Shown here piece by piece: positions 8,947 through 25,465 of a stretch of DNA of 26,934 bases (positions are counted from its first letter, which is position 1; every line of letters begins with the position of its first letter). A program made the position numbers and the translations under genes. The notes beneath the pieces are model-generated. The model was not told the origin of the DNA, ran no database searches, and was given only the letters and a program-made list of their open reading frames with translations. The DNA is from a virus: positions 1 to 26,934 of the IMG/VR virus record IMGVR_UViG_3300020172_005598, one strand, 5' to 3'.

Positions 8947-9684
8947 ATGCCAACACTATTTAAGGTAGGAGGATGTGTAAGGGATAAGATCCTTGGAGTA
9001 CATTCTAAAGACATCGATTTCACTTTTGTTTTAGATGATCTAAATCAAACTGTAGAGCAAGGATTCGAACAAATGACAATTTGGTTAGAATCAGAAGGGT
9101 TTAAAATATTCCTTTCTACTCCAGACTGTTTCACAATCAGAGCAAAGTTTCCAGAAGGGCATAAACACGAAGGACTTGTTGCTGACTTTGTAATGGCAAG
9201 AAAAGAGATAGGCTACATACAAGGAACAAGAAAACCTATCCTTGAGCTAGGTAAACTCGAAGACGATTTAATTAGAAGAGACTTCACTTTAAATGCTCTA
9301 GCTGAAGACGAGGAGGGAAGAATAATTGACTTGTTTGATGGTCAAAAGGACTTGAGAGACGGAATACTAAGAACCCCATTAGATCCAGAAATAACAATGA
9401 TGGACGATCCGTTAAGAATCTTGAGAGCTTTAAGATTCTCCGTAACAAAAGGATTCGGGATTAGCTTTAAAATATGGGACGCAATGGCTCAGCCTGAAAT
9501 CTTAGAGAAGTTAAAAACAACTGTTTCAGTCGAAAGAATGAGAGAAGAAATCTTTAAGATGATGAAACATAATACTCCGCTATCCTTAAGATTACTTCAT
9601 ACCGTTGAAGAATCTTACATACCTGGATTTTTGGATTTAGTATTCTCAAAAGGAATGTGGTTGAAACCTACTAACGAACAATAG
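8947..9684 (+). CDS. CCA-adding/poly(A) polymerase-type nucleotidyltransferase, compact form
   Basis: 245 residues. The head domain is complete: GGCVRD (8-13), catalytic acids in KDIDF (D22, D24), RRDFTLNALA (110-119) and the neck motif DPLRILRALRF (154-163). Bacterial CCA enzymes are usually near 400 residues or more, so this protein keeps the catalytic head and neck and lacks most of the body and tail that measure the tRNA acceptor arm. The reading frame ends cleanly, next to the following ATG, so truncation by frameshift is not evident. It may repair tRNA 3' ends or add other tails. No tRNA gene is in the window. Confidence 0.85.
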   Translation: MPTLFKVGGCVRDKILGVHSKDIDFTFVLDDLNQTVEQGFEQMTIWLESEGFKIFLSTPDCFTIRAKFPEGHKHEGLVADFVMARKEIGYIQGTRKPILELGKLEDDLIRRDFTLNALAEDEEGRIIDLFDGQKDLRDGILRTPLDPEITMMDDPLRILRALRFSVTKGFGISFKIWDAMAQPEILEKLKTTVSVERMREEIFKMMKHNTPLSLRLLHTVEESYIPGFLDLVFSKGMWLKPTNEQ

Positions 9685-10254: not shown

Positions 10255-10310
10255 ATCAAATATTTTTTTTATTGTCGTTTTATTATTATCTTTATAAAAA
10301 ACAAAAAGAT

Positions 10311-11261
10311 ATGAACTACATTTTAAATTTAACCAATCCAGAGAAAGGCGAAATAAATTATGAGCCTTTTAAATTTCCTGACGGTCAGCAATCGATAAAA
10401 ATAAACGATGATAAGATCAAGGGGAATGATATTACAATTATTAGCAGATTAAATTCTTTCCTAGATCTTGAAATGATCGTTTGTGCCAATCAAGCACTTA
10501 AGAATCTTGAATCAGGGGCTATTGATCTTTACATCCCTTATTTTTTAGGAGGTAGATCAGACAGAAAATTTTTCGAGGGAGGAGTTAATTATTTAAGTCA
10601 AGTAATCTCACCTTTAATTAATTCGCAAGGATTTAATAAAGTTTTCACTATGGATCCGCATTCGGATGTATTAGAAGCTTGTATTAATAATTTTAGAAAA
10701 ATTGATAATTCTTCAGTTGTTAGATTCGCAATTGATTCAATTGGTGTGGATCTGAATAATATAGTTTTAGTTTCTCCTGATGGCGGTGCACTTAAAAAGA
10801 TATACGATATAGCAAAAAAATTCGGTATCAATAAAGTTATTAATGCAACAAAACACAGAGATATTGAATCAGGACAAATCCTTAAAACAGAAATTCCTGA
10901 TAACCCATACACAGAAGGACATACATTTTTAATAGTAGATGATATCTGTGACGGGGGAAGAACATTCACTGAATTGGCACAAGTTCTAAGAAACGATATC
11001 TCAAACGAATCTTCCATTTATTTAGTAGTTTCTCACGGTATATTTTCAAAAGGATTTGAGGAATTAGCTAAAAATATAGATGGTATTTTTACGAGTAATT
11101 CTGTAGATGATATCATCATGAAAGATAAACTAAGAGGACTATACGAATATAAAAATTCTAAATCGGAATCGTTAGTTTACAAAAGTGATTATGTTAAGCA
11201 GATGAATGTCTTAAAATCATCCTCAATATATTACACTTTTAAATTAGAAAAGGAATACTAG
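10311..11261 (+). CDS. prs: ribose-phosphate pyrophosphokinase (Prs)-like protein
   Basis: 316 residues from the ATG at 10311, preceded by an A-rich leader. Prs landmarks in order: GGRSDRKF (80-87) for the ATP/metal site, MDPHSD (114-119), SPDGGA (155-160), the flexible-loop ATKHRD (179-184) and the PRPP/ribose-phosphate loop VDDICDGGRT (209-218). The fold makes PRPP from ribose-5-phosphate and ATP. Beside a NAMPT gene it fits either classic nicotinamide salvage or the NARP1 route, where the Prs-like enzyme pyrophosphorylates ADP-ribose. The sequence diverges from bacterial Prs around GGRSDRKF (usually YARQDRK), so the acceptor is open. Confidence 0.85.
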   Translation: MNYILNLTNPEKGEINYEPFKFPDGQQSIKINDDKIKGNDITIISRLNSFLDLEMIVCANQALKNLESGAIDLYIPYFLGGRSDRKFFEGGVNYLSQVISPLINSQGFNKVFTMDPHSDVLEACINNFRKIDNSSVVRFAIDSIGVDLNNIVLVSPDGGALKKIYDIAKKFGINKVINATKHRDIESGQILKTEIPDNPYTEGHTFLIVDDICDGGRTFTELAQVLRNDISNESSIYLVVSHGIFSKGFEELAKNIDGIFTSNSVDDIIMKDKLRGLYEYKNSKSESLVYKSDYVKQMNVLKSSSIYYTFKLEKEY

Positions 11262-11295
11262 AATCTAAATACTTAATATCTTAAAACCAATAATT

Positions 11296-12801
11296 ATGTT
11301 TAAACCAAACAGTTTATTTTATACGGACGGTTATAAAATCGGTCACAAAGCAATGCTTGCACCAGGTACACAATTTCTATACGGAACTTGGATTCCTAGA
11401 TCTGTAAAGTATGCACCAAAAGGAATTAAAAAGATCCTTTCTGCAGGTCAGCAATTAACTTGGCGTTGGTTACACGATGAATTTCAAGAGAATTTCTTCA
11501 GCCAACCAAAAGATGTAGCAACAGATTTTGCTACTGATATGTCTATGTACTTAGGATTAGAGTTTGACGGAAAACACTTTGAGGATTTACACGAATTAGG
11601 TTATTTACCTATCCGCGTTAAAGCACTTCCTGAAGGAATTGAAACACTACCAAATGTTCCACATCAAACTTTTGTTAATACAAAACCGGGGTTTGCTTGG
11701 TTAACCCTTTACCTAGAAACAATCGTTTCTTCTCTTTCTTGGAAAACAGCAACATCTGCAACTGTAGCATTACACTACCGTAGACAAGCAACAGAATGGG
11801 TATTAAAAACCGATCCTACTAATGCTTGGTTAATTGATTTCCTATGTCATGACTTCTCTGCTCGCGGATTGGACCCATTCTCTACATTAGCTTCAGGATT
11901 AGGTCACGCAATGTCTTTCCGTGGATCTGACTCAATTCTTGTTATCCCAGGAGCTCGTTACTTCTACGGAGAACCTGAAAATGAAGTCTGTATCAATTCA
12001 GTAAATGCTTCTGAACACTCAGTAAGTACAACAAAAATCTTTACTGTTGGTGAGCAAGAAATGTTATCTGATTGGATGAAAGTTTTTCCAACTGGTATTC
12101 TTTCTGTCGTATCTGATACATTTGACTTATGGAAATTAATTACAGAATACTTACCTGCACTAAAAGACGAGATCATAAACCGTGATGGCAAACTTGTTAT
12201 TCGTCCTGACTCTGGGGATCCTGTTGACATTATCTGCGGTCTTAACACTCGTCCTGAAATGTTTAGTTCTGAACAAGCAAAACATCCTTCATTCAAAGGA
12301 GTTATTGAATTACTTTGGGATATCTTTGGTGGAACTGTAAATGCTGAAGGGTATAAAGTTCTTGATCCACACATTGGAGCAATCTACGGCGACTCAATTA
12401 CAACTGAACGTCAAGTTCAAATTTACGAAAGATTAGCTTCTAAAGGATTCGCTGCAACTAATATCGTTCTTGGAGTTGGTTCATTCACTTACCAATACAA
12501 TACTCGTGACACTTACGGTTTCGCTGCAAAAGGGGCTTGGTTTACGACTGAAGAAGGCGAGTACAATATCTATAAAGATCCTGCTACAGATGATGGTACT
12601 AAAAAATCTTTAAAAGGTCTTTGTGCAGTATTCCAAGACGAAAATGGTGAATATTATGTAGAAACTGAATGCAGTCCTGAAGTAGAAGCAGATGGTATAT
12701 TAAAAATTATCTATGCAGATGGTAAGTTCTACAACCAAACCACTTTGTCTGAAATTAGAGGCAAGATTTCAAAATTAGTTGAAGCTAAAGAATTAGTATA
12801 A
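11296..12801 (+). CDS. nadV: nicotinamide phosphoribosyltransferase (NAMPT/NadV)
   Basis: 501 residues, full family length. Key residues are visible: YTDGYKIGH near the start, D212 in FRGSD (nicotinamide recognition), H241 in ASEHS (equivalent of the phospho-histidine of human NAMPT), and VIRPDSGDP (301-309) with R303 and D305. The later YGDSITTER matches the phosphate-binding GDG region. It joins nicotinamide to PRPP (or ADP-ribose pyrophosphate in NARP1). Arginine codons are mostly CGT/CGC (11 of 15 by eye), whereas the adjacent Prs gene uses AGA throughout, so the pair may not share the same history or expression level. Confidence 0.95.
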   Translation: MFKPNSLFYTDGYKIGHKAMLAPGTQFLYGTWIPRSVKYAPKGIKKILSAGQQLTWRWLHDEFQENFFSQPKDVATDFATDMSMYLGLEFDGKHFEDLHELGYLPIRVKALPEGIETLPNVPHQTFVNTKPGFAWLTLYLETIVSSLSWKTATSATVALHYRRQATEWVLKTDPTNAWLIDFLCHDFSARGLDPFSTLASGLGHAMSFRGSDSILVIPGARYFYGEPENEVCINSVNASEHSVSTTKIFTVGEQEMLSDWMKVFPTGILSVVSDTFDLWKLITEYLPALKDEIINRDGKLVIRPDSGDPVDIICGLNTRPEMFSSEQAKHPSFKGVIELLWDIFGGTVNAEGYKVLDPHIGAIYGDSITTERQVQIYERLASKGFAATNIVLGVGSFTYQYNTRDTYGFAAKGAWFTTEEGEYNIYKDPATDDGTKKSLKGLCAVFQDENGEYYVETECSPEVEADGILKIIYADGKFYNQTTLSEIRGKISKLVEAKELV

Positions 12802-12863: not shown

Positions 12864-14741
12864 ATGACAACATTTATTCATTACTCATGGCTTTTATTGC
12901 CTGCATTAGCTCTTATTTTTTACAAATTTACATTAAGAGTTTTCTTTGGAATGGTTATTATACCGGAAGATAAAATTGGTTTAGTAACTAAAAAATTCGT
13001 CTTATTCGGAGACAACAAACAATTACCTGATGGTAAAATCTTAGCTTTAAACGGAGAGCCAGGATTTCAAGCAGACACTCTTGCACCAGGTTTATATTGG
13101 GGATATTGGGTATGGCAATATTCTATAGATCAAGCAGATTTTACAGTGATCCCAAGAGGTAAAATTGGTTTAGTTCTAGCAAAAGATGGTAGACAATTAG
13201 AAAAAGGTGCTATCTTAGCAAGACACGTTGAATGTGACGATTTTCAAGATGCAAGAGCATTCTTAACAACTGGAGGACAAAGAGGTAAACAAATCGGATA
13301 TCTTAATGCAGGGGTTTATCGTATCAACACACATTTATTCGATTTAGCAGCTGCTGATATCTGTAGTATAGAAGATGGAATGATTGGTGTACTTACTTCA
13401 TTAGATGGTAAACCTTTAGATCAAGGAAATATCGCAGGTACAATAATAGAGGGACATAACAATTACCAAGATTTTGATAGATTCATCGAAAACGGTGGAC
13501 AGAGGGGTTTACAAACTCAAGTTATTCAAGCTGGTAACTACTCATTAAATCCATGGGCAGTTGAGGTTGAAAAAGTTCCTATGACTCAAATTCCTATTGG
13601 TAACGTAGGTGTTGTTATTTCTTACGTTGGAGAAGATGGTAAAGACATCACAGGTGAAACATTTAAACATGGTAACATCGTAGAAAAAGGAAATAAAGGT
13701 GTTTGTGTTACTCCATTGGATCCAGGTAAATATGCTATAAACCCACACACTCACAAAATCGAAGTTGTACCAACAACTAACTTGGTACTTAACTGGGCAA
13801 ATGCTAGATCAGAATCTCACAATTTAGATAGAAATCTTAGCACAATCACTGTGAGATCTAAAGACGGTTTCCCATTCAATCTTGATGTTTCTCAAATTAT
13901 CCACGTACCTTCTACAGAAGCACCTAAGGTGATTGCAAGATTTGGCTCTATGGGTAACTTAGTTTCTCAGGTACTTGAGCCTACAATTGGTAACTACTTC
14001 CGTAACTCTGCACAAGATTCAGATGTTATTTCTTTCTTGACCACTCGTCAAACAAGACAAAATGCTGCTAAAGAACAAATCTCTAAAGTTCTTGAAGAGT
14101 ACAACGTACATGCAGTAGATACCTTAATCGGAGATATTACTCCTCCCTCAGAACTTATGAAAACTTTAACAGATCGTAAGATTGCTCAAGAGGAAGAAAC
14201 AACTTTCGAAATTCAAAGAAAAGCACAAGACCAAAGAAAGAGCTTAGAATCTGCAAAATCTTTAGCAGATATGCAAGGTCAAATGGTACACGCTCAACAG
14301 TCAGTTGAAATATCACAAAGACAAGCGGAAGCAGCAGTTAAGAAATCAGAAGGGGAAGCTAAAGCATTGGAATTAAAAGCAGGAGCGGAAGCTAAAGCTA
14401 AAAAATTAATGGCAGAAGCAGAAGCATCTCAGATTAAATTAACAGGTTCTGCAGAGGCGGAAAAAATTGAAGCAATTGGACGTTCAACTGCAGAGGCTTA
14501 CAAATTACAAGTTGAAGCAATGGGTAACGATAACTTTGCTAAATTCAAGATCACTGAAGAAATTGGTAAGAACGGAATTAAAATCATTCCTGAAGTACTT
14601 ATTACAGGAGGTTCTGACGGAGCAAATGGTCCAATATCAGGATTACTTGGAATGGAATTATTAAAGCAGATTAATACTAATAATTTACAATCTGTTCAAA
14701 CTAAAAAAGAAGATTTACAAAATGGAGAAGGAAATATTTAA
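12864..14741 (+). CDS. flotillin/SPFH membrane protein with vault-like N-terminal repeats
   Basis: 625 residues. One N-terminal membrane segment (about 8-33) is followed by four repeats of about 60 residues (32-86, 94-160, 168-233, 242-302) sharing an IG-V/L core, DG.x.L..G and a closing G.Y.xN. Repeats 2 and 3 both contain GGQRG. These resemble the repeat units of major vault protein and of some SPFH proteins. The SPFH/band-7 domain covers about 320-435, then a long Ala/Glu/Lys coiled coil (about 440-550, with repeated EAKA/EAEA) and a Gly/Asn-rich tail. Flotillins oligomerise on the inner membrane and organise microdomains. Overlaps the next gene by 20 bases. Confidence 0.85.
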   Translation: MTTFIHYSWLLLPALALIFYKFTLRVFFGMVIIPEDKIGLVTKKFVLFGDNKQLPDGKILALNGEPGFQADTLAPGLYWGYWVWQYSIDQADFTVIPRGKIGLVLAKDGRQLEKGAILARHVECDDFQDARAFLTTGGQRGKQIGYLNAGVYRINTHLFDLAAADICSIEDGMIGVLTSLDGKPLDQGNIAGTIIEGHNNYQDFDRFIENGGQRGLQTQVIQAGNYSLNPWAVEVEKVPMTQIPIGNVGVVISYVGEDGKDITGETFKHGNIVEKGNKGVCVTPLDPGKYAINPHTHKIEVVPTTNLVLNWANARSESHNLDRNLSTITVRSKDGFPFNLDVSQIIHVPSTEAPKVIARFGSMGNLVSQVLEPTIGNYFRNSAQDSDVISFLTTRQTRQNAAKEQISKVLEEYNVHAVDTLIGDITPPSELMKTLTDRKIAQEEETTFEIQRKAQDQRKSLESAKSLADMQGQMVHAQQSVEISQRQAEAAVKKSEGEAKALELKAGAEAKAKKLMAEAEASQIKLTGSAEAEKIEAIGRSTAEAYKLQVEAMGNDNFAKFKITEEIGKNGIKIIPEVLITGGSDGANGPISGLLGMELLKQINTNNLQSVQTKKEDLQNGEGNI

Positions 14742-15296: not shown

Positions 15297-15608
15297 ATGG
15301 AATTTAAAAAGTTTGAATCAATCCTAGATGGATTAAAGAACGTAAGTAAAAAAACACATTCACTATATTCTCTAGGAGTTAATATTATAGAATATACTGA
15401 CAATTACGAATCCATTATAACAAAGCTTCTTACTGAATATTATACAGAAGAAGGATACGATTGGATATCTTGGTATTTGTATGAGAAATTTCCTCCTGGG
15501 TCTGATCAAGAATTAAAAGCATATGATGAAGATAAAAATGAAATATGCAAAGATTACCAGGGGCTTTGGGAATTAGTAGAAGATATAAGAAAGAAAAATC
15601 CGGCTTAG
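15297..15608 (+). CDS. hypothetical protein
   Basis: 103 residues from the ATG at 15297 (a TTG at 15288 is possible). Helical, with DWISWYLYEKFPPGSDQE in the middle and an acidic region after it. I do not recognise it beyond a resemblance to small uncharacterised phage proteins. Its stop lies inside the stem-loop of a strong terminator. Confidence 0.6.
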   Translation: MEFKKFESILDGLKNVSKKTHSLYSLGVNIIEYTDNYESIITKLLTEYYTEEGYDWISWYLYEKFPPGSDQELKAYDEDKNEICKDYQGLWELVEDIRKKNPA

Positions 15609-15621
15609 ACCGGATTTTTTT
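15596..15621. terminator. bidirectional terminator
   Basis: AAATCCGG (15596-15603), loop CTTAGA, CCGGATTT (15610-15617), then T tract. The loop contains the + gene's stop and the structure ends at the stop of the leftward SleB gene, so it serves both strands. Confidence 0.85.
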
Positions 15622-16114
15622 ATAGCTCTTTTAAATAACCAAATCTGTGGTTACCAATATCAGCAGTTTTTTTCCATTTTGAAACCCAATCAGGTGCGGA
15701 AGCAACTTTATTATTTCCTCTATAAGCATAATAAGAATTAGCACCTCCTGTAATGTCTTTAGGATCAGATTTTATTAATTCTATTGCATTTTTCCATTGT
15801 GGATGTTTTTTCCACTTATTTACAATATTTTTTACAGACGGAATATGATAATCTGACTTATTTGATATGTTCTTAGTTACATCATTCCACATGCTAAATC
15901 TATAAGGTCTCAAAGCCTCACCAGCCTTACTAGTTTCTTTTTGCTTAGATCTGTTCTTTAAAACATTTAGAACTGCAGTCATTCCTTTCTTAGGATCAGA
16001 CTCACCTCCAGCTTCACCAACCAAAGTTGCTGCTAATATTTCATGGTCTGTAATAGGCGGTAAATAAGATTCGTTAATAGCTGAATAAGATTCAAAGTCT
16101 ACTAAATTATTCAT
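15620..16114 (-). CDS. SleB/CwlJ-type cell wall hydrolase with possible virion-targeting N-terminus
   Basis: 164 residues. The Hydrolase_2 domain covers about 22-160: EILAATLVGEAGGE contains the catalytic glutamate, AVLNVLKNR follows in the usual place, and GGANSYYAY plus the C-terminal WKKTADIGNHRFGYL complete the fold. Such enzymes are lytic transglycosylases acting on peptidoglycan. There is no signal peptide. Instead the N-terminus reads VDFESYSAINES, matching the F-x-x-Y...INE|S pattern shared with three other proteins. This suits a virion-borne lysin used at entry, though a late lysis role is possible. Confidence 0.85.
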   Translation of the reverse strand: MNNLVDFESYSAINESYLPPITDHEILAATLVGEAGGESDPKKGMTAVLNVLKNRSKQKETSKAGEALRPYRFSMWNDVTKNISNKSDYHIPSVKNIVNKWKKHPQWKNAIELIKSDPKDITGGANSYYAYRGNNKVASAPDWVSKWKKTADIGNHRFGYLKEL

Positions 16115-16128
16115 AATTTATTTTTATT

Positions 16129-16137
16129 GTATATATC
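16129..16137 (-). promoter_or_regulatory. GATATATAC candidate promoter for the SleB gene
   Basis: On the minus strand GATATATAC with an A-rich leader, 14 bases before the SleB ATG, touching the stop codon of the upstream secreted-protein gene. Confidence 0.45.
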
Positions 16138-17078
16138 TAATCCCTATAAGACAGACTAGTAGTAAGATCCTCATAAACTACTATAAAAAATCCTTTATGT
16201 CTCTCAGGATCTATGTCCTTACCCATAAGATCAGTAGCCCTAATAACTTTTAGATTCCTGTTGTTATAAACAACTGATATTATTTCATCATCATACTTTT
16301 TATTCTTTCCATCAAAATCCGTTTGTTCTAGCATATAATAATTTATGCCATCAGAAGGAAAAGGATCTAGGTACTCATACGAGATTGTGTGTGAAGAATT
16401 TCCTGCCCCTGTAATAATAGTTCTTAAATCCCATTGACTGCCGTCTGATGAATGCCATAGACTATAGTAATCATTATTACTTTCTGTAGCTGATGCCCAT
16501 TCTAATTTGTTATACGAACCTCTATTTTTACCTTTAAAATAAAGGAGCTCAATAGGTAGACTAACTGGTGGTGATTCTATGATAGTAACATTGTCTAGAT
16601 AGATTGATGTGGGTGCCCCGTAAATACTAGTGGCTAATATCTGAAAGTATATTGTCTGTGCTGAGGTAGAGAAAAACGTCGAAGACCAGCTATACCATGT
16701 ATTAAAATTGGAGTTGCAACTGGAGTTGGTGTATGTATTATTAGCCAATAGAGTGGTTTGATTTGCCGCTGTGCTCACATTAATCGAAAGCCCACATATT
16801 CTCTTAGTGTAGAATGTAATCGTGTATGTATAGCCATTTTTAGCAGATATAGGAATATAAATATATCTTCCGTTGGCATTAGTTGCACTACTTAATCTTG
16901 CACAATAAGATCCAGAATATGAATTAGTACCGTAATTATAAGAAAAATCCCATTTGGAAACACTAGATGTCCAACCTATGGGATTTACAGAAGAAAATTC
17001 TTCATTAATAACAACACTCTGTGATAAAAAGTAGGTACTGTAGGACAAAAAAATAAGTAGAATAATAAAAATCCTCAT
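16137..17078 (-). CDS. secreted Bacteroidota-type protein with T9SS-like C-terminal region
   Basis: 313 residues. A signal peptide (about 1-20: basic start, FIILLIFLSYSTYF, cleavage near LSQ|S) leads into a Ser/Thr/Asn/Tyr-rich jelly-roll-like domain (about 28-167) ending YLDNVTI, as in adhesin or carbohydrate-binding modules. After a proline linker comes LPIELLYF (174-181), the common start of a module in Bacteroidota secreted proteins, continuing EWASATESNND and YYMLEQTDFDG. The last 40 residues (KVIRATDLMGK, KGFFIVVYED) resemble a type IX secretion sorting domain. The architecture is that of a host surface protein and suggests host origin. Receptor masking or surface change are possible roles. 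Confidence 0.8.
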   Translation of the reverse strand: MRIFIILLIFLSYSTYFLSQSVVINEEFSSVNPIGWTSSVSKWDFSYNYGTNSYSGSYCARLSSATNANGRYIYIPISAKNGYTYTITFYTKRICGLSINVSTAANQTTLLANNTYTNSSCNSNFNTWYSWSSTFFSTSAQTIYFQILATSIYGAPTSIYLDNVTIIESPPVSLPIELLYFKGKNRGSYNKLEWASATESNNDYYSLWHSSDGSQWDLRTIITGAGNSSHTISYEYLDPFPSDGINYYMLEQTDFDGKNKKYDDEIISVVYNNRNLKVIRATDLMGKDIDPERHKGFFIVVYEDLTTSLSYRD

Positions 17079-17385: not shown

Positions 17386-17408
17386 AAGAGTCTTTCGACC
17401 CTTTTTTT
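17385..17408. terminator. bidirectional terminator
   Basis: AAAGAGTC (17385-17392), loop TTTC, GACCCTTT (17397-17404) with one A-C mismatch, then T tract. Located between the small + gene and the convergent helicase stop. Confidence 0.7.
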
Positions 17409-18831
17409 ATTTTGCTCTAATTTCGTAAAGTTTTTTACTAGCTCTTGTATAAGCTGTGTATTTAATACGGTTTCTTTCAATGACATCAATATTTAAATCT
17501 ATGTCATCTTCAAAAACAAAAGAATACTGATAAGTACTACCCTGTGATTTATGTGCAGTTATACTGTAAGAATATCCAACATCGTCATACTCCCTTAAGA
17601 ATTCGTAGTATTTTAACCAAGCCTTATCCTTTCCACCAACCTTTATTGCATGCTTCTTAAGTGCACTTGCTATCATGTCATATGCACTCTGACTATCCTC
17701 ATGTAGAATATAAATATTGGATTTACATTCTTTAAAGTCGTCGTCATAATATTTCACCTTAGTGTTGTAGAATCTAATATTGGTCTCACCTATTTCCAAA
17801 TAAGGGAATATAAACTTCTCTGAATCCAATTCATAAGATATAACAGTGAATTCCTCATTGGTCGGAAATAAAACACTACCAGTCCTGATTATAGGATTAT
17901 TAGCAATTAGTTTTTCTCCAGGAAGTATTTTGGATTTTTCTGAATCGTCACCAAATATAATTTTTCTGACTAGGTCATTCATAGTGGAAACTGTTTTGTT
18001 TCTCCATGCAATTATTTTGGTGTATTCAGCATCATTTTCAAATTCTTTGCTCTTGAAATATTTTGCTAATATGCCTCTGAAATCTCTTCTAACTTCAGGT
18101 TCATTTATATCAAGGAATTCTATACCTTCACCATTTTCCAATAGATTACTTACAGGATCTAATACCTTACTAGGGCTCTCTATATTTTCTCTAATTTTAA
18201 TCGATGAATCTATTATAGGATTACCGGATTTTTGTCTCATAATCGTTTTAAGGGATAAAGTCTCAATACCGTATTTTTCTAGTAAGTCATCCCTAAAAGG
18301 AATACAATCTGGTCTTCCCACAGGAGGTATCTGTGCTGGATCTCCCATACATATAATCTTTATTCTATCTCTGTGTTTGATTAGTTCTTCAAACAATTCG
18401 TCGTTTAACATAGAAACCTCATCTATTATTAGAAGACTAATATTACCTATTTGAGAACTACCATAATCAGAAACAAATTCTTGTTTTCCATCAGGAGTTA
18501 TTTTCTCCTGTAGGCCAAGCAATTTGTGTATCGTTTGAAAAACAACTCTAGGGTTTCTTATAGAAGATGCCCTTTTTATAACTTTAACCGACTTATTAGT
18601 TGGACCAGTAACTGCTATCTTATACCATCTGTTACTTTTATGAATAACTTCAAGAACATATCTAATTAGAATACTAATACAATATGTTTTACCGGTTCCT
18701 GCCCATCCTTTTAAAACATATACCCTATCATCATAACGATTAATTATAAAATCCCTTAATTCTTCAAATGCTTTCTTCTGATCCTCGTTTAAAGTATCTA
18801 CTGGAACTAATTGTTTAGTAGCTTCTGCCAT
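17407..18831 (-). CDS. dda: Dda-like SF1B DNA helicase
   Basis: 474 residues, close to T4 Dda (439). Q-motif-like LNEDQKKAFEEL (14-25), Walker A GWAGTGKT (42-49), motif II LLIIDEVSML, motif III GDPAQIPPVG, and near the C-terminus SITAHKSQGSTYQ (motif V) followed by YTAYTRASKKL (motif VI). Dda unwinds DNA 5'-3' in replication start and recombination and can displace bound proteins. All catalytic motifs are intact. RecD2/Pif1-type relatives are the alternative. It is leftward, with the secreted-protein and SleB genes also leftward beyond one intervening rightward gene. Confidence 0.9.
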   Translation of the reverse strand: MAEATKQLVPVDTLNEDQKKAFEELRDFIINRYDDRVYVLKGWAGTGKTYCISILIRYVLEVIHKSNRWYKIAVTGPTNKSVKVIKRASSIRNPRVVFQTIHKLLGLQEKITPDGKQEFVSDYGSSQIGNISLLIIDEVSMLNDELFEELIKHRDRIKIICMGDPAQIPPVGRPDCIPFRDDLLEKYGIETLSLKTIMRQKSGNPIIDSSIKIRENIESPSKVLDPVSNLLENGEGIEFLDINEPEVRRDFRGILAKYFKSKEFENDAEYTKIIAWRNKTVSTMNDLVRKIIFGDDSEKSKILPGEKLIANNPIIRTGSVLFPTNEEFTVISYELDSEKFIFPYLEIGETNIRFYNTKVKYYDDDFKECKSNIYILHEDSQSAYDMIASALKKHAIKVGGKDKAWLKYYEFLREYDDVGYSYSITAHKSQGSTYQYSFVFEDDIDLNIDVIERNRIKYTAYTRASKKLYEIRAK

Positions 18832-21911: not shown

Positions 21912-22718
21912 ATGAAAATATTATCAATAGGAGATATACACGGAAAAAATTCATGGATGAATTTAACACATAATAGTGTAAGTTCTTATAATAATTGGAG
22001 GGTAAGCGTAGAAAGCGGTGCTCATGCTGATAATGAATTCTGGGATGAATTTCCATACATGGAATATGACAAAATAATATTCGTTGGAGATTATGTTGAC
22101 TCTTACGATTTAAGTAACGTAGAGATCTTACACAATTTAAAAGAGATAATCTGGTTTAAAAAAAATCTACCAGATAAGGTTATTCTTTTAATAGGTAATC
22201 ACGACATTCAATATTTTATTCCTAATGAAATATGTTCAGGATATAGAGCAGAAATGAAACCTGATTTAGAGGATCTTTTTAATTCAAATATAGGGCTTTT
22301 TAAAATAGCTCACCAAGAATTGGACAAAGATGGTAAGCCATGGATATGGACACATGCTGGAATAACTGAGGGATGGTTAAAGGAGGTAAGGACTGAGGTT
22401 TACAATAAATTCTATAGATTTTATGAATTTGTAAAAGATATCGAAGAAAATAATATAGATGAATTGTTAAATGTTCTTTTTGATCTAAGAAACGGAGTTT
22501 TATTTAATATAGATGCACACAGTGGTGGATTTAATTTGTGGGCAGGTCCAGTTTGGGTAAGACCACAAATATTAAATGAATTCTGTTTAAAAGGTTGGAA
22601 CCAAATTGTAGGACACACAAGACAGAAAGATATCAAAGAAGTAGATCTTGAAACACACAAGATTTATTATATAGATTGTTTAGATTCAGAAGGTAAAGGA
22701 TTAATACTAGATTTATAA
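21912..22718 (+). CDS. PPP-type metallophosphatase
   Basis: 268 residues with the full calcineurin-like metal-site series: GDIHG (7-11), GDYVDS, GNHD, THAG and GHT near the C-terminus, all in order. The GDIHG/GDYVDS/GNHD forms are those of Ser/Thr protein phosphatases and diadenosine tetraphosphatases. Lambda phage phosphatase is a known phage example. It may act on phosphoproteins or nucleotides. Overlaps the SmpB start by one base (TAATG), so the two are translationally coupled. Confidence 0.85.
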   Translation: MKILSIGDIHGKNSWMNLTHNSVSSYNNWRVSVESGAHADNEFWDEFPYMEYDKIIFVGDYVDSYDLSNVEILHNLKEIIWFKKNLPDKVILLIGNHDIQYFIPNEICSGYRAEMKPDLEDLFNSNIGLFKIAHQELDKDGKPWIWTHAGITEGWLKEVRTEVYNKFYRFYEFVKDIEENNIDELLNVLFDLRNGVLFNIDAHSGGFNLWAGPVWVRPQILNEFCLKGWNQIVGHTRQKDIKEVDLETHKIYYIDCLDSEGKGLILDL

Positions 22719-23143
22719 TGGCAAAGGCAGACATAACTAACAGAAAAGCAAGATATGATTATTTTTTCATAGACAACTACACTGCAGGTATACAATTATT
22801 TGGTCCTGAGGTAAAAGCTATAGAAAAAGGTAAAGTCACTATGCTGGATTCTTTTTGTTATTTTAAAAAAGGAGAGCTTTTTGTAAAAGGCCTTGTAATT
22901 ACTACAACAGGTACCTTTATGCCTGATCCTAAAAGAGATAAAAAACTTCTTCTTAAAAAAAGAGAGCTTAGGAAAATACAGAAGGAGATTAACCCAGGTA
23001 TCACAATAGTACCTAAAAAAATATTCAGTAATTCTAGAGGAATGATAAAATTAGAAATCTCTATTTCTAAAGGTAAGAAGGATTACGATAAAAGAAATAC
23101 AATAAAAGAAAGGGATCTTAATAGAGAGATGAAGAACTATTAA
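22718..23143 (+). CDS. smpB: SsrA-binding protein SmpB
   Basis: 141 residues, slightly short of the usual 150-160. Family landmarks are clear: NRKARYDYFF at the start, GPEVKAIEKGKV (usually GTEVKS.R.GK), a DSFCYFKKGEL strand, KKLLLKKRE, IVPKKIFSNSRGMIKLEIS and the C-terminal KGKKDYDKRNTIKERD with basic tail. SmpB brings tmRNA into stalled ribosomes and its tail lies in the empty mRNA channel. The conserved NHDPxRxR loop is altered to PDPKRDKK. No ssrA gene is seen here, so it would work with host tmRNA or one elsewhere in the phage. Confidence 0.92.
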   Translation: MAKADITNRKARYDYFFIDNYTAGIQLFGPEVKAIEKGKVTMLDSFCYFKKGELFVKGLVITTTGTFMPDPKRDKKLLLKKRELRKIQKEINPGITIVPKKIFSNSRGMIKLEISISKGKKDYDKRNTIKERDLNREMKNY

Positions 23144-23695: not shown

Positions 23696-25465
23696 ATGTG
23701 CAACAAGACTAGAATATCCTTAATAATTTCATCAGTATTGATAGCAGGATTTTTATTTATTAAGATAGCAACGCAATCAGGTATAATAAACGAAACTGAA
23801 TTCACAAAACTATTAGAGATGTGTTTCTTCGGACTATCATTGCCATCTTTTATTATGATTGTTAAAAAATACACATCAAAGAGCAAGGAATACGAATACA
23901 TAAGCGATTATTTAACTAGATTAGGAAACATATTAGTTGAACAATCACAGGATCATTTATTTTATACTGGCGACATAGAAAAATGTTCTAAACAATTAAC
24001 AAAAGCCTCTTCCATAGCACTTAATTCTGGAAGATGCTCAATATGGCTATATAATGAATCCAGAACATCAATACTATGTGAACAGCTCTACATAAAAGAT
24101 AGAAACGATTGGGAGACGGATATGGAAATAAAGAAAGAAGATTTCCCATCATACTTCGAAGTATTAGAAAGCAACCCAATAATAATAGCTAACGACACTA
24201 ATGAACACCCAGCAACTATATGCTTTAAGGAGGTTTATACTACACCATTAGGTATAAAATCTATGCTCGATGTTCCTATTATATATAGGGGTGAAGTAAT
24301 AGGAGTAGTTTGTGTAGAATCATTAGAATCTAGAATATGGATGGAAGCTGAAATAAATTTTGCACACTCAATAGCATCTTTATACGCTTTTGCTTATTCA
24401 GTATTCGAAAACAACCTAGTAACTAAGGATCTAATAGAAATAGAAAAATTTATAGATCACGCGGCTCTTATATCTAAGACCAATAAAAAAGGAGAAATAA
24501 TATACGCAAATAAGAAATTCACTAAGGTTTCTGGATACACAATAGAGGAGGTTTTAGGAAAGGATCATAGACTATTAAACTCAGGATTACATAACAAAAA
24601 TTTCTGGAGTAATATGTACAAAATGGTAGTAGACGAGAAAAAGATCTGGAACTCAGTTGTGACAAATAAAGGAAAGAAAGGAAATTTATATTATGTGGAC
24701 ACTTATATAAAAGCTGATTTTGACCAAGAGACTGGAGAATTAAAAGGTTTCACTTCAATAAGACAAGATGTAACAGATATTATAGAATCATTAAATGAGG
24801 TAGATAAAAAGAACACTTATTTAGAACACGCTGCTAAAATCCTAAGACATGATATGCACAGCGGAATTAACACTTATATCCCAAGAGGTATAACTTCATT
24901 AGAGAGAAGATTAAGTCCAGAAATAATTAAAGAATTTAAGTTAGAAATACCTTTAAAAATGTTAAAAGAAGGGCTTAAACACACACAGAAGGTCTATACC
25001 GGGGTTTACGATTTTACTAATTTAGTAAAAAAAGATTCTATATTAGAAAAAGGATCTTATAATTTAGGAAGAATACTAACATCTTTTCTTGAATCAACAG
25101 CATATTCTAACCAGGTTTTAATATCTGAATGGATGCCAACTATCGATGTTAATGAATCTTTATTCTGTACAGCCATAGATAATCTAATAAGAAACGGGCT
25201 TAAATACAATGACAGTGAGACGAAGATAGTAGCAGTCTATATGGATTCAGAAGAATGGATTGCAATACAGGACAATGGTAGGGGTTTATCACAGAAAGAT
25301 TTTGAAGAACTATCTAAGCCATATGCTAGAAAGAAGGGTCAAAAAGAAAGTGGTACTGGATTAGGTCTTAACATTTGTGTAGCAATATTAGAAGAGCATG
25401 GATTCTTAATCACTTGTGAAAAAACCAAAGATGGTGGAACCAAGATAAGAATAAAAATTAAATAG
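23696..25465 (+). CDS. membrane sensor histidine kinase with GAF and PAS domains
   Basis: 589 residues. Two membrane helices (about 7-25 and 42-57) are joined by a short acidic loop, so there is no external sensor. A GAF domain (about 95-235) and a PAS domain (about 250-365, with ANKKFTKVSGYTIEEVLGKD) are in the cytoplasm. The phosphoacceptor helix carries LRHDMHSG with H385. The ATPase has N-box DNLIRNGLKYND (495-506), G1 QDNGRGL (525-531) and G2 GTGLGL (553-558). All catalytic motifs look intact. It probably senses a cytoplasmic small molecule and passes phosphate to the regulator at 25503. Confidence 0.92.
   Translation: MCNKTRISLIISSVLIAGFLFIKIATQSGIINETEFTKLLEMCFFGLSLPSFIMIVKKYTSKSKEYEYISDYLTRLGNILVEQSQDHLFYTGDIEKCSKQLTKASSIALNSGRCSIWLYNESRTSILCEQLYIKDRNDWETDMEIKKEDFPSYFEVLESNPIIIANDTNEHPATICFKEVYTTPLGIKSMLDVPIIYRGEVIGVVCVESLESRIWMEAEINFAHSIASLYAFAYSVFENNLVTKDLIEIEKFIDHAALISKTNKKGEIIYANKKFTKVSGYTIEEVLGKDHRLLNSGLHNKNFWSNMYKMVVDEKKIWNSVVTNKGKKGNLYYVDTYIKADFDQETGELKGFTSIRQDVTDIIESLNEVDKKNTYLEHAAKILRHDMHSGINTYIPRGITSLERRLSPEIIKEFKLEIPLKMLKEGLKHTQKVYTGVYDFTNLVKKDSILEKGSYNLGRILTSFLESTAYSNQVLISEWMPTIDVNESLFCTAIDNLIRNGLKYNDSETKIVAVYMDSEEWIAIQDNGRGLSQKDFEELSKPYARKKGQKESGTGLGLNICVAILEEHGFLITCEKTKDGGTKIRIKIK

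Follow-up and report, generated by a model that had tools for sequence, protein, structure and literature searches.

The locus and its neighbours

The window analysed here is an entire IMG/VR virus record of 26,934 bp. The gene of interest is an intact ORF of 313 codons, read on the minus strand from an ATG at 17078 to a TAA ending at 16137, which bears out a first-pass annotation that had placed an ORF at 16137-17078 without naming the strand. It is not a chance ORF, since relatives of its C-terminal module were detected at no fewer than 565 loci in Bacteroidota and 192 in IMG/VR, and its N-terminal domain recurs in 16 IMG/VR contigs. The features noted earlier are present, namely a hydrophobic N-terminus, an LPIELL...GAGNSS...YYMLEQTDFDGK module and a KVIR...KGFFIVVYED ending, as are the two flanking phage genes, both on the minus strand. 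The elements of the locus are as follows:

15594-15619, minus strand: terminator-like hairpin after the hydrolase gene (11 bp stem, T-rich tail)
15620-16114, minus strand: SleB-like cell-wall hydrolase (PF07486, 2.5e-6; PHROG endolysin, 5.5e-10)
16140-16274, minus strand: compact C-terminal tail, residues 269-313, proposed short T9SS sorting signal (motifs, profile and model)
16275-16562, minus strand: LPIELL module, residues 173-268, with a fibronectin-III-like fold (VIA-align Z of about 11 to FNIII domains)
16563-17021, minus strand: N-terminal domain, residues 20-172, a jelly roll like those of CBM, MAM and cleaved-adhesin domains (VIA-align)
17022-17078, minus strand: Sec signal peptide, residues 1-19, MRIFIILLIFLSYSTYFLS (hydropathy; no lipobox cysteine)
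17407-18831, minus strand: Dda-like helicase (PHROG, 5e-82)

The hydrolase gene lies 22 bp downstream of the secreted-protein gene on the same strand, and the two are possibly co-transcribed. A pattern scan for terminator-like hairpins returned two sites against 0.9 expected in shuffled sequences, which is weak evidence. The window also encodes further genes typical of large phages, among them a PRPP synthetase and NAMPT pair for NAD salvage (10272-12801, plus strand). A relative of the PRPP synthetase adjoins a gene with the sorting module in the 642-kb phage LR756502 and also at L115, L119 and L126, and three relatives in a syntenic phage clade adjoin both NAMPT and PRPP synthetase, as in the window. 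At the DNA level the window has a single close match, again in LR756502, of 822 bp at 72.8% identity, which falls in the gene for an SPFH/Band 7 protein of 625 aa with an N-terminal hydrophobic segment (12864-14741, plus strand). Other plus-strand genes encode a poly(A) polymerase head domain or nucleotidyltransferase-like protein (8947-9684; PF01743, 5e-19), the tmRNA partner SmpB (22718-23143; PF01668, 1e-43) and a GAF-PAS-HATPase sensor kinase with an N-terminal hydrophobic segment (23696-25465). No tmRNA or tRNA was found in the window.

Architecture of the encoded protein

T9SS cargo carries an N-terminal Sec signal peptide, and the hydropathy and composition of the N-terminus indicate one here: its best 10-residue hydropathy is 3.42, it ends in ..YFLSQ and it has no lipobox cysteine. 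The region is a helix (residues 2-17) in the structure model. The following domain, part of which is modelled with low confidence (27-49), aligned by VIA-align with TmCBM61 (Z 12.7, 137 residues, rmsd 2.8), the highest score among the CBMs, with meprin MAM (Z 12.0) and with the K3 cleaved adhesin of Kgp (Z 11.4, 140 residues). The adhesin-like label of the first-pass annotation is thus supported, in the sense of a bacterial adhesin- or CBM-like domain that shares this fold and is predicted to bind. The domain family is essentially confined to phages, the 16 contigs comparing with weak matches in 4 out of 249 host genomes from the order of Brumimicrobium. In all 15 complete members among these contigs the same C-terminal module comes next. 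No relative emerged when IMG/VR was scanned with the full-length sequence by itself, the relatives having surfaced through alignments of the C-terminal module, and a sequence search of solved structures with the whole protein gave no match either.

The 141-residue C-terminal module was modelled by AlphaFold2 with a mean pLDDT of 93.7. After the FN3-like fold, the tail forms three strands (residues 106-111, 124-130 and 135-140 of the model) with a pLDDT of about 90 or more, and it carries a B-like motif (LMGKDI), a D-like motif (GFFIVVY) and a degenerate motif E. Foldseek and VIA lists for this model were filled by FNIII domains, with no T9SS CTD structure among them; these searches therefore barely probed the tail's own fold, and the missing CTD match is not counterevidence. 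Searching the sequences of solved structures with the compact module returned matches at chance level.

The first-pass annotation had proposed comparing the ending with sorting-domain models of the TIGR04183 and TIGR04131 types. Neither the whole protein (E up to 1) nor its last 141 residues (E up to 10) matched any NCBIfam model, these two included, or a Pfam sorting domain, while a related protein used as a positive control, from the 462-kb phage LR756500, matched TIGR04183 at 5.3e-8. The clear homology to phage tail or virion proteins that would have spoken against the annotation was likewise absent, as no PHROG virion or structural family matched at E up to 0.01.

The tail of this protein is a divergent member of its family. 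It scored 30.7 bits against a leave-one-out profile, the third lowest of 80, and in its terminal motif a leucine replaces the near-invariant lysine or arginine, as well as the preceding glycine, each of which is conserved in 76 of 80 relatives. Gene decay, which such a change could suggest, was set aside: a sister protein (L113/L304) has the same kind of altered ending in an intact ORF, so that a subclade variant fits better than fresh decay. Nevertheless, given the missing residues and the reported importance of motif E lysines for secretion (PMC10202324), the signal of this particular protein could be weak or altered.

A compact tail in Bacteroidota and in phages

Among relatives of the C-terminal module, the number of residues following the YYRL motif falls into two classes, a canonical one of 90-123 residues and a compact one of 60-79. 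The long class ends in a canonical YPNP-type CTD and the compact class in a tail of about 45 residues, with the consensus xVKxxNxLGQEVdxxxkGxxIxxYxDGxxxKxxx. Of 141 proteins, 140 carry this tail at their very C-terminus. It also caps unrelated proteins that lack the LPIELL module and have signal-like N-termini, namely endonuclease I, beta-lactamase-like, LRR and laminin-G-like (lectin-like) proteins. One endonuclease I, found in a different record, carries the canonical type A CTD of a solved structure (8glk_D), which implies that one protein family can bear either signal. When 10 unrelated tail-capped host proteins were compared with the curated sorting models, none matched. Taken together, these patterns suggest a recurring C-terminal module that behaves like a sorting signal.

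The tail was found in 3 out of 296 genomes of the phylum (a sample that includes the centre), in 98 of 150 from the family of Brumimicrobium and in 139 of 249 from its order, with up to 24 copies per host genome. Brumimicrobium is placed by NCBI in the Crocinitomicaceae, Flavobacteriales. An initial reading of the tail as specific to the Crocinitomicaceae was dropped on the order-level figure, and host prediction accordingly extends to the order rather than the family. The T9SS translocon protein SprA was detected in 228 of the 296 phylum genomes and in 149 of the 150 family genomes, the single negative one also lacking the compact tail. SprA is present in every tail-positive genome of these two samples, the phage's own host being a prediction.

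In phages, the non-redundant IMG/VR proteins comprised 89 with a compact ending, 12 with a canonical CTD and 8 with other short forms. These counts merge two scans of opposite bias, the compact-query scan alone having given a ratio of 86:3 skewed by its query, which the canonical-query scan was added to correct. Some of the eight other forms look intermediate (PTGIYLRKC...EKIFK, for example), and intermediates combining PxGxY with K..K exist, one of them in a genome record (L066). A further short ending, YxLxGxxID...PxGxYLRKC...KIIK, terminates four phage proteins (L267, L274, L281 and L287) and possibly links the canonical and compact tails. In one phage stretch (L097, 123-1516), two canonical-CTD proteins lie close to two compact-tail genes, and a single phage may therefore use both signal types.

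Signal-like N-terminal segments were found in 62 of 70 compact-tail phage relatives versus 88 of 686 other genes (p 4e-40). The eight lowest-scoring relatives are each the first ORF of their stretch; seven of them have apparently cut N-termini, and in the eighth (L121) the signal comes after the called start. Relatives of the C-terminal module are carried by four phages of 462-642 kb, and phages hold one or two copies each, those with genomes of several hundred kb included. In one of the four (LR745206, 634 kb; L002, 3688-5366), the secreted part and the module lie in overlapping ORFs in different frames, a split that could be due to an assembly error, a mutation or frameshifting. Other relatives adjoin RNA ligase, NAMPT or capsid genes, with no hydrolase alongside; at 12 loci, including L098 (2361-5408), the compact-tail gene shares a stretch with the gene for a T4-like major head protein, often just downstream. 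On the tree, host and phage labels changed 8 times, compared with 34.7 for shuffled labels, which points to several transfers between hosts and phages.

Near-identical phages differ in the binding-type domain. Their flanking proteins are 97-99% identical and their C-terminal modules 83-94%, compared with 54-60% for the N-terminal domains. At the DNA level, the signal peptide and C-terminal module of three relatives (L109, L116 and L134) are 93-100% identical over much of their length, the middle is 45-80% identical, and the boundaries are sharp at the nucleotide level. The pattern is not universal, being absent from one set of four relatives (L136, L137, L146 and L150) and from another pair (L102 and L155). 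Positive selection on the N-terminal domain was unsupported, with dN/dS below 1 and dS raised too; since dS is raised in the middle, domain exchange fits better than point selection. Phages thus exchange the N-terminal domain while the signal peptide and the C-terminal module on either side are conserved, a pattern to be expected of a protein that faces variable ligands. A Pfam search of 51 phage N-terminal parts gave no clear enzyme match; the few matches were to MAM, CUB, fn3, PPC and galactose-binding families, together with weak, near-threshold ones to phosphatase N-terminal and phospholipase families.

Proposed role and comparison with known systems

We consider it fairly probable that the gene encodes a phage-made, secreted protein that binds at the host cell envelope and is displayed through the T9SS. 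Export by the Sec pathway, the first step, is strongly indicated by the signal peptide. The compact tail would then act as a short sorting signal by which the host T9SS carries the protein over the outer membrane, as the family suggests, and a glycan- or protein-binding domain, predicted from the fold, would be displayed on the infected cell or released from it. The most likely benefit, which is a guess, would be a cell surface altered so as to be closed to competing phages or other binders, or a change in attachment. For the family, T9SS secretion has good support; for this protein it is plausible. The first-pass proposal of a secreted protein with a T9SS-like C-terminus therefore stands in part: relatives on secreted proteins of T9SS-bearing bacteria and the likeness to short CTDs argue for it, and the curated models against. 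Its further suggestion, receptor masking and a block to superinfection, is best regarded as a guess.

Short CTDs have been described in Prevotella intermedia, where they comprise 40-51 residues with closely spaced motifs B, D and E and are predicted to form a single three-stranded sheet; like the long ones, they undergo cleavage and glycosylation, and it is the sole species reported to have both CTD lengths (PMC11969387). In addition, the 22 residues that end the HBP35 CTD, containing motifs D and E, can drive the secretion of GFP (PMC10202324). The tail described here resembles the P. intermedia CTDs in its position at the C-terminal end, its length of about 45 residues and its three predicted strands, and their lysine-bearing motif E is present in the compact-tail family at large, although not in this protein. 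P. intermedia, however, belongs to another order, and its cleavage and glycosylation are proven, whereas the tails reported here, from another lineage and from phages, are candidates likened to its CTDs by length and strands. The type A CTD (TIGR04183/PF18962) likewise lies at the C-terminus, in most hosts behind the same LPIELL module, and has B- and D-like motifs that can be aligned with those of the compact tail. Nevertheless, it spans 72-80 residues with a YPNP motif and a seven-strand Ig-like fold, whereas the tail of this protein has no YPNP and three modelled strands. Profiles of the two tail classes aligned by hhalign with 65% probability, over 19 columns only, and a forced full alignment paired G..V, G..Y and K..K across a 16-residue gap, which is no more than suggestive of sequence homology.

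The two alternatives that keep a role for the protein in the phage differ in where they would place it. It might be a Sec-exported protein confined to the periplasm, its tail a folding or interaction element or a decayed signal, perhaps acting in lysis with the adjacent SleB-like hydrolase. The proximity of that gene, followed on the same strand by a terminator-like hairpin, and the absence of the conserved glycine and lysine or arginine from the tail favour such an arrangement, but no hydrolase gene adjoins the relatives that have other neighbours, the altered ending is shared with an intact sister, and a periplasmic location does not readily account for hypervariable binding domains; we regard it as unlikely. 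Less likely still, the protein might decorate the virion or serve it in adhesion, comparable to phage Ig-domain proteins, and would then sit in the particle and bind surfaces or hosts. FN3-like domains are indeed found at phage tail tips, as in the T5 tip proteins, the binding domain is variable, as in receptor-binding proteins, and the major head protein gene nearby at 12 loci would suit a virion role as well. Against this, no PHROG virion family matched, the gene has no fixed position among structural genes, and nearly all intact relatives have a signal peptide, unusual for a virion protein assembled in the cytoplasm; moreover, the conserved part is the C-terminal module, which is common to secreted host enzymes.

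That the gene has no selected function, being a chance pickup from a host or part of a host fragment in a contig wrongly called viral, is disfavoured and seems very improbable. The LPIELL module is indeed common in host genomes, and the tree points to several host-phage transfers, but the N-terminal domain is carried by phage contigs with fully intact ORFs and hardly seen in hosts, three relatives occur in a syntenic phage clade beside NAMPT and PRPP synthetase, and related proteins are present in the four very large phages. We therefore retain display at the host envelope as the preferred reading. More tentatively, phages of this Bacteroidota order, huge ones included, might share a surface-display scheme of one or two genes, in which exchangeable binders are held between a fixed signal peptide and a fixed short T9SS signal, coating the infected cell with a ligand binder of the phage's choice. 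A host secretion system would then be put to phage-wide use by means of an uncatalogued sorting signal.

The idea of phage-encoded T9SS cargo is already known (PMC7468147, PMC6949934). Bellas et al. (2020) described T9SS cargo genes in a 76-kb Cryophage and suggested superinfection exclusion or inter-strain competition (PMC7468147). That phage resembles the present case in encoding proteins with T9SS sorting domains that vary among otherwise near-identical phages, but there the signals are type A CTDs, borne by an endoglucanase, a GH39 and a PA14 protein, in contrast to a short, uncatalogued signal on binding-type domains; it is also one phage, whereas here there are many, including huge ones, in which the N-terminal domain is exchanged between conserved ends. 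BACON cluster 2 of gut crAss-like phages similarly combines T9SS sorting domains with carbohydrate-binding-type domains, albeit found in passing by BLAST and with no short signal described (PMC6949934). A literature search, from whose coverage most subscription papers fell outside, returned no short CTDs beyond P. intermedia and no phage proteins bearing them; the scale, the short signal and the domain swapping look new.

If the preferred reading holds, many phages of a common environmental Bacteroidota group would use the T9SS of the host to reshape the surface of infected cells while these are alive, with binding domains exchanged in the manner of tail-fibre tips. The short signal would represent a class of T9SS cargo, on host enzymes and phage proteins alike, that present annotation models miss, and would provide a sequence tag hinting at the hosts of phages that largely lack an assigned one. 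As regards record names, genome records with MAG titles naming Kuenenia, Chryseobacterium and Chitinophaga (L065, L066 and L006) group with the Brumimicrobium family, and their titles therefore look wrong.
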